Assembly: GCF_024112395.2 (NCBI RefSeq)
Contig: NZ_CP078013.2
Coordinates: 4,464,001-4,528,000, forward strand
Origin: Pseudomonas pergaminensis
GTDB taxonomy: Bacteria > Pseudomonadota > Gammaproteobacteria > Pseudomonadales > Pseudomonadaceae
Reading direction: 5' to 3'
Length of the DNA stretch: 64,000 bases
Below are positions 14,886 through 20,029 of the stretch, piece by piece (the stretch's first letter is position 1; each line of letters opens with the position of its first letter). The notes under the pieces were generated by a model that saw only the letters and a program-made list of their open reading frames with translations, had not been told where the DNA came from and did no database searches. Position numbers and translations under genes: made by a program.

Positions 14886-15080
14886 TTAACGAAGGCGCAG
14901 CATGCGCTCGACTTTTGCCACGTCAGACGGATGCAGCAAGCTGCTACCGCGCAGTTGACGCTTACGCTTGGTCGACATTTTGGTCAGGATGTGGCTCTTG
15001 AAAGCGTGCTTGTGCTTGATACCGTTAGCAGTTTTCAGAAACCGCTTAGCAGCACCACTTTTAGTCTTCATCTTTGGCAT
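14886..15080 (-). CDS. rpmI: 50S ribosomal protein L35
   Basis: 64 residues, very basic, with the family text [20 protein letters not shown] at the start and [20 protein letters not shown] at the end. A small component of the large ribosomal subunit. It lies between infC and rplT with a 60-base gap to infC that holds its Shine-Dalgarno (GGAGT). Standard gene order of the initiation factor 3 operon. Confidence 0.99.
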
Positions 15081-15140
15081 GTTCGGATACTCCGCATTCA
15101 GTTGATAAACATAATCAGAAGGCCTGCCGTGCCCTGTTGA

Positions 15141-15686
15141 TTACTTCTTCTTTTTCGGGGCGATGACCATGATCAGCTGGCGTCCTTCCATCTTAGGATG
15201 CTGTTCGACGGAACCGTACTCGAGCAGGTCAGCTTCAACCCGCTTGAGGAGTTCCATCCCCAGCTCCTGGTGGGCCATCTCACGGCCGCGGAATCGCAAG
15301 GATACCTTGGCCCTGTCCCCATCACTCAGGAAACGTACCAGGTTGCGCAGTTTTACCTGGTAATCCCCTTCCTCCGTCCCTGGACGAAACTTGATTTCTT
15401 TTACTTGAATCTGCTTCTGGTTCTTCTTCGCCGCAGCAATCTGCTTCTTCTTTTCGAAGATCGACTTGCCGTAGTCCATCACCCGGCAAACAGGCGGGAC
15501 TGCGTCGGCGGAGATTTCCACCAGGTCCAATTTGGACTCTTCAGCGATACGAAGCGCTTCATCAATCGAGACGATGCCAATCTGCTCGCCGTCAGCGCCA
15601 ATTAACCGAACCTCGCGTGCCGAGATATTCTCGTTGATCGGGGCTTTCGGTGCAGCTCGTTTATCTTGTCTCATTTCACGCTTAAT
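15141..15686 (-). CDS. infC: Translation initiation factor IF-3, ATT start
   Basis: About 181-183 residues. IF-3 checks the start codon on the 30S subunit. Family text is complete: [37 protein letters not shown] and the C-terminal [13 protein letters not shown]. The first ATG (15674) has no Shine-Dalgarno at proper distance; upstream in frame are three ATT codons (15692, 15689 and 15686) before AAG CGT GAA ATG. GGAG stands just before them. E. coli infC starts at ATT and is autoregulated through it, so an ATT start is chosen; which of the three is used is open, and the most distant overlaps the thrS stop codon. Confidence 0.93.
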
Positions 15687-15691
15687 AATAA

Positions 15692-17614
15692 TTACTCCGA
15701 ATCTGGGCGACCACGCCGGGAAACCGCTTGCGCGAGGAACTCAGCGAACTGGGCGACGGGCATCGAGCCCAGGTCAGCACCTTCACGAGTACGCACAGCG
15801 ACAGTCTGCATCTCGACTTCCCGATCTCCGATAACCAAAAGATAGGGAACCTTGAGCAAAGTATGCTCGCGGATTTTAAAGCCGATCTTTTCATTTCTCA
15901 AGTCGGACTTGGCACGAAATCCGCTTTCGTTGAGTGTTTTTTCAACTTCAGCGGCAAAATCTGCCTGTTTATCAGTGATATTCATGATCACTGCCTGGGT
16001 CGGAGCCAGCCACGCAGGGAATGCACCCTCGTAGTGCTCGATCAGGATCCCGACGAACCGTTCGAACGAGCCGAGGATCGCCCGGTGCAGCATAACCGGG
16101 TGTTTACGGCTGTTGTCTTCGGAGACGTATTCGGCTCCCAGACGGATCGGCAGGTTAAAATCGAGCTGCAGGGTACCACACTGCCAGACGCGGCCAAGGC
16201 AATCTTTCAACGAGAACTCGATCTTCGGACCGTAGAACGCGCCCTCACCCGGTTGCAGGTCGTACGCAAGCCCCGCACTGTCCAGCGCTGCAGCCAGTGC
16301 AGCTTCGGCGCGGTCCCACAGCTCGTCGGAGCCGACGCGTTTTTCCGGACGAGTGGACAGTTTCATTTCGACTTCGGTAAAGCCGAAATCGCGGTAAACA
16401 TCCATGGTCAGCTTGATGAACGCGGCGGATTCAGCCTGCATCTGCTCTTCGGTGCAGAAGATGTGGGCGTCGTCCTGGGTGAAGCCACGCACGCGCATGA
16501 TGCCGTGCAGCGCACCCGATGGTTCGTTACGGTGACAGGCACCGAACTCGGCCAGGCGCATTGGCAACTCGCGGTAGCTCTTCAGGCCTTGGTTGAACAC
16601 CTGCACGTGGCATGGGCAGTTCATCGGCTTGATGGCGTAGTCGCGGTTTTCCGACTGGGTGGTGAACATGTTGTCGGCGTAGTTGGCCCAGTGCCCGGAT
16701 TTCTCCCACAGGCTGCGGTCAACGACCTGAGGCGTCTTTATCTCCAGGTAGCCGTTTTCGCGCTGAACCTTGCGCATGTACTGCTCGAGCACTTGGTACA
16801 GGGTCCAGCCGTTCGGGTGCCAGAACACCATGCCCGGTGCTTCTTCCTGGAGATGGAACAGGTTCAGGCGCTTGCCGATCTTGCGGTGGTCGCGTTTTTC
16901 AGCTTCTTCGATACGCTGGATGTAGGCCGCCAGCTGCTTCTTGTCAGCCCACGCAGTGCCGTAGATTCGCTGCAGTTGCTCGTTTTTCGCATCGCCACGC
17001 CAGTAGGCACCGGACAGCTTGGTCAGCTTGAACGATTTGAGGAAGCGCGTGTTCGGCACGTGCGGGCCACGGCACATGTCGACGTATTCTTCGTGGTAGT
17101 ACAGGCCCATGGCCTGCTCGTCCGGCATGTCTTCCACCAGGCGCAGCTTGTAGTCTTCGCCACGGGCGGTGAACACGTCGATCACTTCGGCGCGCGGCGT
17201 GACTTTCTTGATCACGTCGTAATCTTTTTCGATCAGCGCGTGCATGCGCTGCTCAATGGCAGCCAGGTCGTCCGGGGTAAAAGGACGCTCGTAGGCGATG
17301 TCGTAATAGAAGCCTTCTTCAATGACCGGGCCGATTACCATCTTCGCGGTGGGGTACAGCTGCTTGACCGCATGGCCAATCAGGTGCGCGCAAGAGTGGC
17401 GAATGATCTCCAGCCCCTCTTGATCCTTGGGCGTGATGATTTGCAGGCTGGCGTCGCTGGTGATCAGGTCGCTGGCGTCGACGAGCTTGCCGTCGACCTT
17501 GCCGGCCACGGTGGCCTTGGCCAGGCCTGCACCAATGGATGCGGCGACCTCGGCTACGGAAACCGAATGATCGAATGAACGTTGACTGCCGTCGGGAAGA
17601 GTAATAGTTGGCAT
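15692..17614 (-). CDS. thrS: Threonyl-tRNA synthetase
   Basis: 640 residues from [20 protein letters not shown], preceded by AGGAGAGGAGG. Class II synthetase charging tRNA-Thr. Domains: TGS (1-62), editing domain (about 63-225, with [16 protein letters not shown], holding the editing histidines), catalytic core (about 240-535) with the zinc-binding cysteine in [30 protein letters not shown] and the histidine in [14 protein letters not shown], then an anticodon-binding domain (about 540-640). First gene of the thrS-infC-rpmI-rplT-pheST-ihfA cluster. Two hairpins upstream with Thr-like anticodon loops suggest translational autorepression. Confidence 0.98.
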
Positions 17615-17633
17615 GGCGCCTCCTCTCCTAGTG

Positions 17634-17686
17634 GTGACCCCTACCAAAGGTCACGTGGGTTGGGATGAGCCAGTACAAGATCCAAC
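17634..17686 (-). promoter_or_regulatory. Candidate thrS autoregulatory operator (tRNA-Thr anticodon mimics)
   Basis: On the minus strand GTGACC (17654-17649) pairs with GGTCAC (17639-17634). Closing one more T-G pair leaves a seven-base loop TTGGTAG whose middle is GGT, the Thr anticodon, with T before and A after it as in real anticodon loops. Four bases upstream another stem (GTTGGAT 17686-17680 with ATCCCAAC 17666-17659) encloses CTTGTAC, resembling a tRNA-Thr(UGU) loop. The proximal hairpin ends 19 bases before the ATG. E. coli thrS has two such arms that bind the synthetase dimer. Confidence 0.6.
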
Positions 17687-17981
17687 ACCAGGCCGTTCAG
17701 TGATGAACGCCTGCCTTACAGCGGCAGGAGCCTTTCGGCCAACCGATAATCGAACCAGAGTGACTGGAGTGAGCTAAAAAGAACCTGGCAAGGCGGCAAT
17801 TGGCACGCCTGGAGATAGCCAAGCGCAAGATGCTAGCACAGATGAACGGTCATCGCGGCGCTGCTATCTTGCGTAACGACAAAATCCGGCCTTTATAGCT
17901 GCAAAAGTGAACTTGAGCTGTACGCAATGCCTCAAACCCACTGAGAATCGCCGTTCGTCCTCGACCCAAAGGAGCATCCTC
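17655..17981. other. Divergent intergenic region between thrS and the small exported protein gene
   Basis: Beyond the operator-like hairpins, the minus-strand leader can form GTTCA/TGAAC (17694-17707) and CCTGCC/GGCAGG (17710-17729) stems, so a long structured thrS leader is likely. AAAGGAG at 17968-17974 is the Shine-Dalgarno of the plus-strand gene. No further gene was recognised. Confidence 0.5.
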
Positions 17982-18296
17982 ATGATGCGTTTTACCTCTA
18001 CCCTCGCTCTCGCCGCTTCCCTGACCCTCCTTTCCCTCGGCGCCCAGGCAGCAGCCCCGTCGAACTGGCCAGCCGGTGCTCGCGACAGCTTCGTCAGCGA
18101 TTGCAGCGCAGCTGCCAGCCAGAACGTAGACGTCAAAACTGCCAAAGCCCACTGCGAATGTGGCGCCGACAAGATCAACGCTGAATTGAGCACCGCCGAA
18201 ATCAAAGAGCTCATGACCAACCAGAACGCCAGCCCGGAGCTTAAAAACAAAGCTGTCGCGGCTATTTCGTCCTGCAAAGTCGTGAAGAAAAAGTAA
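17982..18296 (+). CDS. Small exported four-cysteine protein, function unknown
   Basis: 104 residues from the ATG eight bases after AAAGGAG. A signal peptide is evident (residues 1-23, hydrophobic, ending AQAAAP). The mature part of about 80 residues has four cysteines in the pattern SDCSAA, AHCECGADK and SSCKVV, suggesting two disulfide bonds in the periplasm. The rest looks helical and ends in a basic tail (KVVKKK). I do not recognise a named family. It stands alone between thrS (divergent) and a cold-shock gene; an AAGCCCCG/CGGGGCTT hairpin follows at 18409-18429. Confidence 0.75.
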   Translation: MMRFTSTLALAASLTLLSLGAQAAAPSNWPAGARDSFVSDCSAAASQNVDVKTAKAHCECGADKINAELSTAEIKELMTNQNASPELKNKAVAAISSCKVVKKK

Positions 18297-18585
18297 GATC
18301 TGCCACTGATCACACGGCTTTTTCACGGGTAAAACAGCCCGAAAACTGCCATTTCTCACAAATTACGCAGCTTTTACGGCTTTTTTTACCAGTTGATATT
18401 TCGAGCCAAAGCCCCGTAGATCGGGGCTTCCAGCCGAAAACGGTACTAAACGCAACGCTATTGATTAGCAAACAATGCCTTGGGGGGGCTCCCAAGCCGA
18501 ACATTTCGACTATGATAGCCCGGTGTGCCCAGTTGGCCTGAGCAGCACAGCACTACTGAAAATATATGTTTCTTGGAGATACACC

Positions 18586-18798
18586 ATGTCTAATCGCCAA
18601 ACCGGCACCGTTAAATGGTTCAACGATGAAAAAGGCTTCGGCTTCATCACTCCTCAAGGTGGCGGTGACGACCTGTTCGTACACTTCAAAGCTATCGAAA
18701 GTGACGGTTTCAAAAGCCTGAAAGAAGGCCAGACCGTTTCCTTCGTGGCTGAGAAAGGCCAAAAGGGTATGCAAGCTGCACAGGTTCGCGGCGAGTAA
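18586..18798 (+). CDS. Cold-shock protein (CspA family)
   Basis: 70 residues with the full cold-shock OB fold. RNP1 is present as KGFGFITP and RNP2 as LFVHFKAI, the aromatic nucleic-acid-binding motifs. Such proteins bind single-stranded RNA or DNA and melt mRNA structure during cold or stationary-phase adaptation. Start chosen at [12 protein letters not shown], six bases after TTGGAGA. A 5' untranslated stretch of well over 50 bases is likely, as is common in this family. Which Pseudomonas Csp paralogue it is cannot be settled. Confidence 0.95.
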
Positions 18799-18812
18799 TT
18801 CTCCGCTGAGCT

Positions 18813-18845
18813 AAAAAAACCCCGTCCATGTGACGGGGTTTTTTA
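18813..18845. terminator. Terminator shared by the csp and I78 inhibitor genes
   Basis: CCCCGTC (18820-18826) pairs with GACGGGG (18832-18838), five-base loop, with A-runs on the left and T-runs on the right. It serves the cold-shock gene on the plus strand and the convergent lipoprotein gene on the minus strand. Confidence 0.92.
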
Positions 18846-18871
18846 TGGGCACTGCAAAAGCCTTGAATGAC

Positions 18872-19192
18872 TTAGCCGCAGTTGACCCGCGTGATCACCA
18901 GGTTGTCATCGGTGTTCAGGTTCAGGCGGTCGGAGCGGTATTCCAGGGTAATCATGTCGTTGGGCTTGAGGATGCGTGCGTTCTGCGCACCGGCACGGGT
19001 GCGTGCCTGCTCCAGCAACTGGGGCGAAGCTTTCTGGCCGATCGTGAATTCGGCGGCCTTCGACTCACAGCGGCTATGACCGGCATCGGCCACGGCGGCG
19101 TCTTTGGCTGGCTCAGAGGCACCCGGGGTGCTGCAACCCGCCAACGCGAGTGCTGCCAACAAAGTACCGAATGATGCGAGCTTCCAAGGCAT
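18872..19192 (-). CDS. I78-family peptidase inhibitor lipoprotein
   Basis: 106 residues. The N-terminus is a lipoprotein signal with lipobox LALAGC (cysteine at residue 20). The remainder fits the peptidase inhibitor I78 family: CESKAAEFTIGQKASPQLLE, RTRAGAQNARILKPNDMITL and RLNLNTDDNLVITRVNCG, with the conserved first and last cysteines likely paired. Members inhibit serine peptidases; this one would do so from the outer or inner membrane in the periplasm. TAGGAGG precedes the ATG. Single gene convergent with csp. Confidence 0.85.
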   Translation of the reverse strand: MPWKLASFGTLLAALALAGCSTPGASEPAKDAAVADAGHSRCESKAAEFTIGQKASPQLLEQARTRAGAQNARILKPNDMITLEYRSDRLNLNTDDNLVITRVNCG

Positions 19193-19336
19193 GAAGCCTC
19201 CTATGATAAAAAATGGACAGAGATCGTGCGACAGCGATTGGGCGGATTGGTTTCAAGACGTAAACCGCCGCTTGGCAAGTCTGCCTGACTCTCGGCAGGC
19301 ATTCGCCCGGTCAATCGTGACCAGATATGAATGTAT

Positions 19337-19645
19337 TCAGTAGATGTCGATGTAGTCGAACGCCGGCTTCGGCCAGTTTTCCTTCAGCGCATTGAAAATC
19401 TGCGTCACCCAGACTTCGTCGCTGGCGGCCACATTGCCTACGTACCCGGACCCCTTGGCCCAGGTCTCCAGGCGAAACAGCAGCCCGTCGATGTCCACGC
19501 CACCCACGACCCTCCCTGAGGAGATGTAGGCGATCCCGGCCTTGGTCACCCGCAGTTGGGCATGTTCGTCGTCACTGGCACTGGCGAGAAGCTGGCGCAC
19601 ATTCGCCAGCGTCAGGTTCTCGGGGTTGTTCAAGTCGATCTGCAC
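19337..19645 (-). CDS. Conserved hypothetical protein
   Basis: 102 residues, soluble, acidic, with no signal peptide or membrane segment. The text MQIDLNNPENLTLANVRQLL, DEHAQLRVTKAGIAYIS and VGGVDIDGLLFRLETWAKG suggests a small mixed alpha/beta fold. I recall no named family. Codon use is like the neighbours, and it stands alone between other single genes. Confidence 0.7.
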   Translation of the reverse strand: MQIDLNNPENLTLANVRQLLASASDDEHAQLRVTKAGIAYISSGRVVGGVDIDGLLFRLETWAKGSGYVGNVAASDEVWVTQIFNALKENWPKPAFDYIDIY

Positions 19646-19816
19646 GTGGTGTTCCCCGGCAATTAAACAGGCGGACAGTGTCGCACAGCGCCGCCGTCAT
19701 TCCGAATCGCCTCATGCCTAAGTATCAGTGCCAAACCCGATACAAAATGGTTAACTGGGCTGGTAAGAACCGCGTTCCAGCGCATTGCCCAGTACTTCCA
19801 GCCCCGTGAGACAGTC

Positions 19817-20029
19817 ATGACCACCGTAACGCTCCAAGCCGACATCAAAGCCAAGTGGCCCCAAGGACAGAGCTCCTACAGCCCTGGAAGCCCAGAGGAA
19901 TTGGCGATCATTGGTATCGACCTGCTGGTCAAGGAGCTAGGTACACAAGCGGCACAAGCGTTCATCGGCCAGATATTCGAGAAATATCCGGCCGATCACA
20001 TGGGCGCACACGACCCCGAGCGCGAATAA
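19817..20029 (+). CDS. Small conserved hypothetical protein
   Basis: 70 residues starting MTTVTLQADIKAKWPQGQSS. No signal peptide, cysteine or membrane segment; the middle (ELAIIGIDLLVKELGTQAAQ) looks helical. The length and clean start suggest a genuine small gene, but no family is recognised. It converges with the nucleoside hydrolase gene. Confidence 0.6.
   Translation: MTTVTLQADIKAKWPQGQSSYSPGSPEELAIIGIDLLVKELGTQAAQAFIGQIFEKYPADHMGAHDPERE

Follow-up and report, generated by a model that had tools for sequence, protein, structure and literature searches.

The leader of thrS, the threonyl-tRNA synthetase (ThrRS) gene on the minus strand of the window (the whole 64 kb stretch of DNA analysed here), raises the question of whether this enzyme controls its own mRNA through RNA arms that imitate its tRNA and, if so, which parts of the leader form those arms. 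In E. coli, the thrS operator provides the textbook example of an mRNA imitating a tRNA to control its charging enzyme; domain 4 of that operator reads as one long hairpin. By analogy with that system, the leader at 17767-17615 (minus strand) is very probably (roughly 85%) an E. coli-type translational operator for ThrRS, with two arms through which the enzyme would bind and repress its mRNA. The first-pass annotation of the window had likewise claimed two anticodon-arm mimics; two do stand, but the second is at 17728-17710, outside the stretch in which it had been placed. The gene and the first arm, named here after domain 2 of the E. coli operator, comprise the following features.

15692-17614, minus strand: thrS, threonyl-tRNA synthetase, 640 amino acids, an open reading frame from the ATG at 17614.
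17619-17629, minus strand: AGGAGAGGAGG, a purine-rich Shine-Dalgarno region, as read from the letters, kept in the aligned leaders with small changes in some.
17630-17633, minus strand: the CACT tail behind domain 2, present in 35/35 rows of alignment A1 and 89/92 of alignment A3, with CTCT in the other three.
17634-17654, minus strand: the domain-2 arm, a 7-bp stem with a 7-nt loop, conserved and covarying across families and matched by covariance model R1 (17660-17630, 44.5 bits).
17654-17648, 17647-17641 and 17640-17634, minus strand: its 5' arm GTGACCT, loop TTGGTAG and 3' arm GGGTCAC, from the letters.
17645-17643, minus strand: the anticodon-like GGT in the domain-2 loop, from the letters.

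The hairpin described earlier, a GTGACC/GGTCAC stem around a TTGGTAG loop 19 bases before the start codon, is confirmed at 17654-17634, with 19 nt (17633-17615) separating the domain-2 stem from the thrS ATG at 17614. Around the loop, 13/15 bases agree with the arm CACCC-TTGGTAA-GGGTG of the genome's own tRNA-Thr(GGU), and tRNA-Thr genes with the anticodons GGU, UGU and CGU occur in the same genome (part of its 64 tRNA genes inspected). On both strands of the 64 kb window, domain 2 is the sole hairpin that combines a stem of 6 pairs or more with a 7-nt loop of the form xTNGTAx; 20 dinucleotide shuffles of the window yielded seven such hairpins in total (stems of at least 7 pairs; 0-2 in each shuffle), and hairpins with looser NGU loops are frequent, 39 being present in the window among stems of at least 6 pairs.

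Energy folding does not favour domain 2, so the case rests on comparison. A 75-nt piece of it folds no better than shuffles (z 0.55), the minimum free energy (MFE) structure of the whole 161-nt leader pairs the domain-2 bases otherwise (z -1.15), and the probability of the domain-2 stem ranges from 0.01 to 0.98, varying with the length folded. The MFE of the leader is -57.2 kcal/mol with other pairings, compared with -54.8 kcal/mol when the proposed helices are imposed. Folding of the leader had been proposed earlier as a check on the first hairpin, which free energy alone does not favour.

For comparison, 170 thrS leaders were collected via the ThrRS protein rather than the RNA, near-duplicates included. 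The 129 that came from the Pseudomonadaceae or close relatives all carry the hairpin end CACCACT (129/129), as do 19 of the other 41; inspection by eye of the remaining 22 found a hairpin with CATCACT in nine (Acinetobacter and Psychrobacter) and none, or a degenerate one, in 13. Alignment A1 holds 35 distinct domain-2 forms without gaps, selected by the presence of thrS and the CACCACT tail (the CATCACT forms by eye). Its stem is paired in 96.7% of cells (85.3% in shuffles) and has 26 cells with changes in both bases of a pair (7.4 in shuffles), values that none of 500 shuffles reached, though such controls do not remove relatedness; further pair types were not above shuffles (285/500). In the loop, U33 is present in 32/35 forms and position 34 takes all four bases (G18, C10, T4, A3), while G35 and U36 are present in 35/35. 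A conserved loop and a covarying stem had also been proposed as a check on the first arm, and this held across families but not within the family, as the domain-2 stem of 60 Pseudomonadaceae leaders taken alone changes on one side only.

Covariance model R1, built from the 35 forms of A1 with E. coli excluded, recovers the thrS leader of E. coli K-12 (35.1 bits). Judged by this match, the domain-2 arm is orthologous to domain 2 in the E. coli operator, which supports the earlier claim of an E. coli-type operator arm with GGU in place of CGU. R1 finds this operator core in 129/194 genomes sampled from the order, 110/369 from the class and 28/200 from the phylum; these samples overlap, E-values from R1 and from model R2 (below) are approximate, and weak matches are lost to the stricter filters applied in the genome scans. 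The class and phylum matches, rather than the 129 order matches as a set, were placed relative to thrS, with the window's genome and its congeners G028, G083 and G113 omitted. Of the 128 matches, which come from 126 genomes, 125 sit on the thrS strand 8-47 nt ahead of the gene, including 123 at 8-21 nt. Of the other three, that of G460 is on a broken contig, that of G453 is an orphan standing between genes, and that of G541, outside the class, is weak (24.7 bits), not at thrS and was taken as chance. Alignment A3 consists of 92 aligned R1 matches (87 distinct), and its stem has 45 double-change cells compared with 9.3 in shuffles (0/500). Its loop has U33 in 85/92 rows, C52, G30, A5 and T5 at position 34, a purine at 37 in 91/92 and G35-U36 in 92/92, although the conservation of GU is partly a product of selecting the rows by R1. 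Because position 34 is free in domain 2, GGU for CGU implies no new logic, and the earlier view of the different anticodons as a notable departure was overstated.

The same comparison bears on whether the leader is instead an attenuator or a site for another protein, its likeness to tRNA-Thr being incidental. Binding of ThrRS to the leader is predicted by analogy with E. coli, which leaves room for such a reading, but the near confinement of R1 matches to thrS, the fixed G35-U36 of the domain-2 loop, the orthology with an experimentally tested E. coli element, the position of domain 2 next to the Shine-Dalgarno sequence and the failure to find a terminator-like site on the thrS strand between 17600 and 18000 together make it very improbable. 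No promoter-like site was found upstream of the thrS leader. Searches of Rfam (release 15) returned no match at E up to 1 over this leader (window positions 15000-20000 searched) or over the E. coli thrS leader, so annotation that relies on Rfam misses the thrS operator.

For the second arm, the first-pass annotation had proposed a stem holding a UGU-like CTTGTAC, and the letters GTTGGAT...CTTGTAC...ATCCCAAC are indeed present at 17686-17659 on the minus strand. The loop CTTGTAC (17679-17673) matches that of the genome's own tRNA-Thr(UGU), CTTGTAA, at 6/7 positions (one genome, by eye). Across 60 distinct Pseudomonadaceae leaders, however, the stem is paired in 63.5% of cells, which equals the shuffle mean, and shows no covariation, and the loop reads NGU in just 30/60 leaders and exactly CTTGTAC in 16/60. 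Moreover, GTTGGATC, the 5' arm of this hairpin, pairs instead with GGTTCGAT at 17756-17749, as the 3' strand of a helix that covaries. The second arm was thus misidentified, and we give almost no credence to the CTTGTAC hairpin in that role. The structure that emerges instead is a branched domain (domain 4), joined to domain 2 by a linker.

17763-17767, minus strand: 5' strand of helix P0, CCAGT, invariant in 60/60 leaders, which could pair with 17674-17670.
17749-17756, minus strand: 5' strand of helix P1, GGTTCGAT, pairing with 17686-17679; four pairs show changes on both sides.
17730-17739, minus strand: P2, a small hairpin GCC-GAAA-GGC, with 91-93% of cells paired and some both-side change in 3/3 pairs.
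17710-17728, minus strand: P3, the putative second anticodon-arm mimic, CCTGCC-GCTGTAA-GGCAGG, from loop conservation and stem covariation.
17720-17718, minus strand: the anticodon-like TGT of the P3 loop, from the letters.
17694-17709, minus strand: P4, a lineage-specific hairpin CGTTCA-TCAC-TGAACG, seen in the alignments and paired in folding, absent in many relatives and outside the covariation count.
17679-17686, minus strand: 3' strand of P1, GTTGGATC, the 5' arm of the CTTGTAC hairpin.
17670-17674, minus strand: 3' strand of P0, ACTGG (CCTGG in some leaders), from the alignment.
17655-17669, minus strand: the linker CTCATCCCAACCCAC, joining domain 4 to domain 2, highly conserved, whose tested partner helices lack covariation.

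Alignments A2 and A4 comprise 60 leaders picked for diversity; with L123 and L124 dropped, the 129 reduce to 97 distinct leaders. In the P3 loop, G35 and U36 are the only invariant positions (60/60) and the other five of seven vary, with position 34 taking T45, C10, A4 and G1, position 33 more often C than U (C in 43/60) and position 37 G27, A23, T5 and C5. As its loop reads, P3 is therefore a looser tRNA mimic than domain 2, with C33 commoner and no fixed purine at 37. The P3 stem is paired in 98.9% of cells, and 2/6 pairs show both-side changes. When the 129 leaders were scanned, 127 yielded a hairpin whose 7-nt loop holds NGT, and L123 and L124 yielded none; in two of the 127 (L032 and L121) the longest-stem rule of the scan chose another hairpin, and the alignment shows P3 in both.

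Domain 4 as a whole has 29 cells with both-side changes, compared with 9.1 in shuffles (0/500). The innermost pairs of P1 are open in many rows (19/59 at column 61 and 8/59 at column 62), and P0 hardly varies and so receives no covariation support. Another candidate for the closing helix of domain 4, GGTTGG/CCAACC, was rejected, as its pairing (80.9%) equals that of shuffles and it lacks covariation. The linker CTCATCCCAACCCAC is presumably single-stranded, corresponding by analogy to domain 3.

Covariance model R2, built from the branched domain, matched 8/194 order genomes at the threshold used, all of them Pseudomonadaceae, including three from a genus outside the training set (G562, G566 and G644), which lie near the threshold (E of 5e-4 to 8e-4). 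Over 100 leader loci, among them the Halopseudomonas-like L123 and L124 and that of E. coli, R2 matched only L206 and L207, which belong to the same genus as those three genomes; the model could miss more diverged forms of the branched domain. Simple hairpins with a 7-nt NGT loop upstream of domain 2 were found in 7/111 leaders of other families, compared with 3.8 (sd 1.9) in mononucleotide shuffles, and are not clearly enriched. Taken together, the sequences make the first arm the conserved core, the second being variable in form or unrecognised.

These results leave some room for a reading in which only domain 2 contacts ThrRS, while P3 and the branched domain are otherwise employed, in mRNA stability or as a ribosome-standby scaffold, with the GU of P3 kept constant by common ancestry or some other cause. 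The P3 sequences come from a single family, their loop differs from a tRNA loop at positions 33 and 37, and the scan of other families is in keeping with this reading. Against it, position 34 of P3 takes all four bases within the family and no loop base is invariant apart from the two of threonine identity, and in reviews of the E. coli operator a second anticodon-like arm is placed at the equivalent position (PMC9976931, PMC11088916, PMC7373986). We consider this reading unlikely, though far from negligible, and prefer P3 as a second ThrRS-binding arm, a contact predicted from the P3 loop alone.

GA and AC loops predominated in the same 111-leader upstream scan (40 and 39 leaders), and for the most part at least they trace back to tRNA-Val genes. 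Of 84 upstream pieces, 38 contain such a gene no more than 220 nt ahead of domain 2, in 37 cases on the same strand, and it is possibly co-transcribed with thrS.

Compared with the enzyme of E. coli, 417/640 aligned residues are identical, and the window ThrRS is full length, N-terminal domains included, the alignment spanning 640 positions. N575, R583, E600 and R609, which we take to be the anticodon-reading residues of ThrRS, are the same in both enzymes in this alignment. Structural relatives in the PDB include 6vu9, 1qf6 and 1kog, among others. In E. coli, deletion of the N-terminal region of ThrRS is reported to abolish regulation (PMC7373986).

Beside the observed architecture, conservation and covariation of the leader, the orthology of domain 2 and the G35-U36 fixed in both arms, a mechanism can be proposed in which ThrRS binding, bridging by the dimer, repression and competition by tRNA are carried over from E. 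coli. There, operator domains II and IV are described as forming two hairpins like the tRNA-Thr anticodon loop (PMC11088916), both arms with conserved G and U identity bases (PMC7373986), and the N-terminal part of ThrRS as clashing with the platform of the 30S subunit (PMC7373986); the operator is also covered in PMC9976931 and PMC3858243. In Pseudomonas, domain 2 would imitate the tRNA-Thr anticodon arm just 5' of the Shine-Dalgarno sequence, and P3 (UGU) would be held 55 nt upstream of it (17709-17655 between) in the branched domain 4, with helix P1, and probably P0 as well, closing it. When ThrRS is in excess over its tRNA, the dimer would take both arms, one per anticodon-binding domain, and the bound enzyme would hinder 30S binding and block its own translation, until tRNA-Thr, competing for ThrRS, relieves the repression. 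A hint concerning the CACT tail comes from E. coli lines exposed to ceftazidime and borrelidin, for which a G-to-A substitution at position 1,802,589 is reported, with relief of autoregulation offered only as the authors' hypothesis (PMC13148393). By position count, this site (NC_000913.3; L172 position 190) corresponds to base 3 of that tail, which is C in 35/35 rows of A1 and 92/92 of A3.

The thrS operator is a known kind, and the Pseudomonas leader resembles that of E. coli in the gene, the kind of enzyme, the place, stem length, loop size, NGU and CACT tail of domain 2 and the presence of a second anticodon-like arm upstream. It differs in that the first arm carries GGU rather than CGU and in that the second arm sits in a branched P0/P1/P2/P3(/P4) domain, for which R2 finds no match in the E. 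coli leader (L172) at E up to 1; the second domain of the Pseudomonadaceae therefore looks different in build from that of E. coli. In 2002 Torres-Larios et al. reportedly extended the operator motif to a subset of Gram-negative bacteria, and their paper may already include domain 2 of Pseudomonas. A literature search, with most subscription journals outside its reach, turned up no paper that appeared to describe a Pseudomonas thrS operator. Neither the branched domain of the Pseudomonadaceae, second arm included, nor leaders with tandem domain-2 hairpins (below) were met in it, so that both may be new. Yeast aminoacyl-tRNA synthetases are also described as using mRNA elements like the cognate anticodon for autoregulation (PMC6542539), a eukaryotic likeness involving other enzymes that implies no homology.

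Two genomes from two families, neither of them Pseudomonadaceae, carry tandem complete domain-2 hairpins directly before thrS: G502 (L203 32-99, minus strand), with the loops TGCGTAG and CTCGTAC, and G704 (L272 198-262, plus strand; also L294), with TTCGTTT and AACGTAG (loops by eye). Domain 2 may thus be old and widely kept, while the second ThrRS arm was built several times, as a branched UGU domain in the Pseudomonadaceae, a different hairpin in E. coli and a tandem copy of domain 2 in G502 and G704, with only G35-U36 held in each arm. We advance this tentatively, at slightly less than even odds; if true, unrelated RNA scaffolds have repeatedly met the need to hold both halves of the dimer. 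Whether two arms are needed, and whether the second can come from unrelated scaffolds, are questions that these data make testable.

Several further observations concern related loci. In two genera of family f231 (L289 and L290), a common short hairpin-like stretch with GGTA in the loop (CCCGTGGTAGGGG and CCTTTGGTAAGG) lies upstream of domain 2 and is a possible second arm of another make. G793 (L273 and L292) has two thrS-type starts with domain 2 before each; an initial assignment of one of these hairpins to a non-thrS gene was wrong, the open reading frame being a second thrS. Second, more distant ThrRS-like genes (60-64% identity) occur in some Pseudomonas genomes (G134:C44, G044:C5 and G070:C30). 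The orphan domain-2 hairpin of G453 (L204 493-523, plus strand; same place in L293) is not at thrS; it has a gene on either side, stands 9 nt ahead of an open reading frame of 11 codons (MITRFPSPKRF) and is perhaps the remnant of a copied thrS leader. Finally, within the window, a sub-threshold match to the cspA thermoregulator (18524-18846, plus strand; 69.7 bits against a gathering score of 78) overlies a small cold-shock-type open reading frame at 18475-18798.
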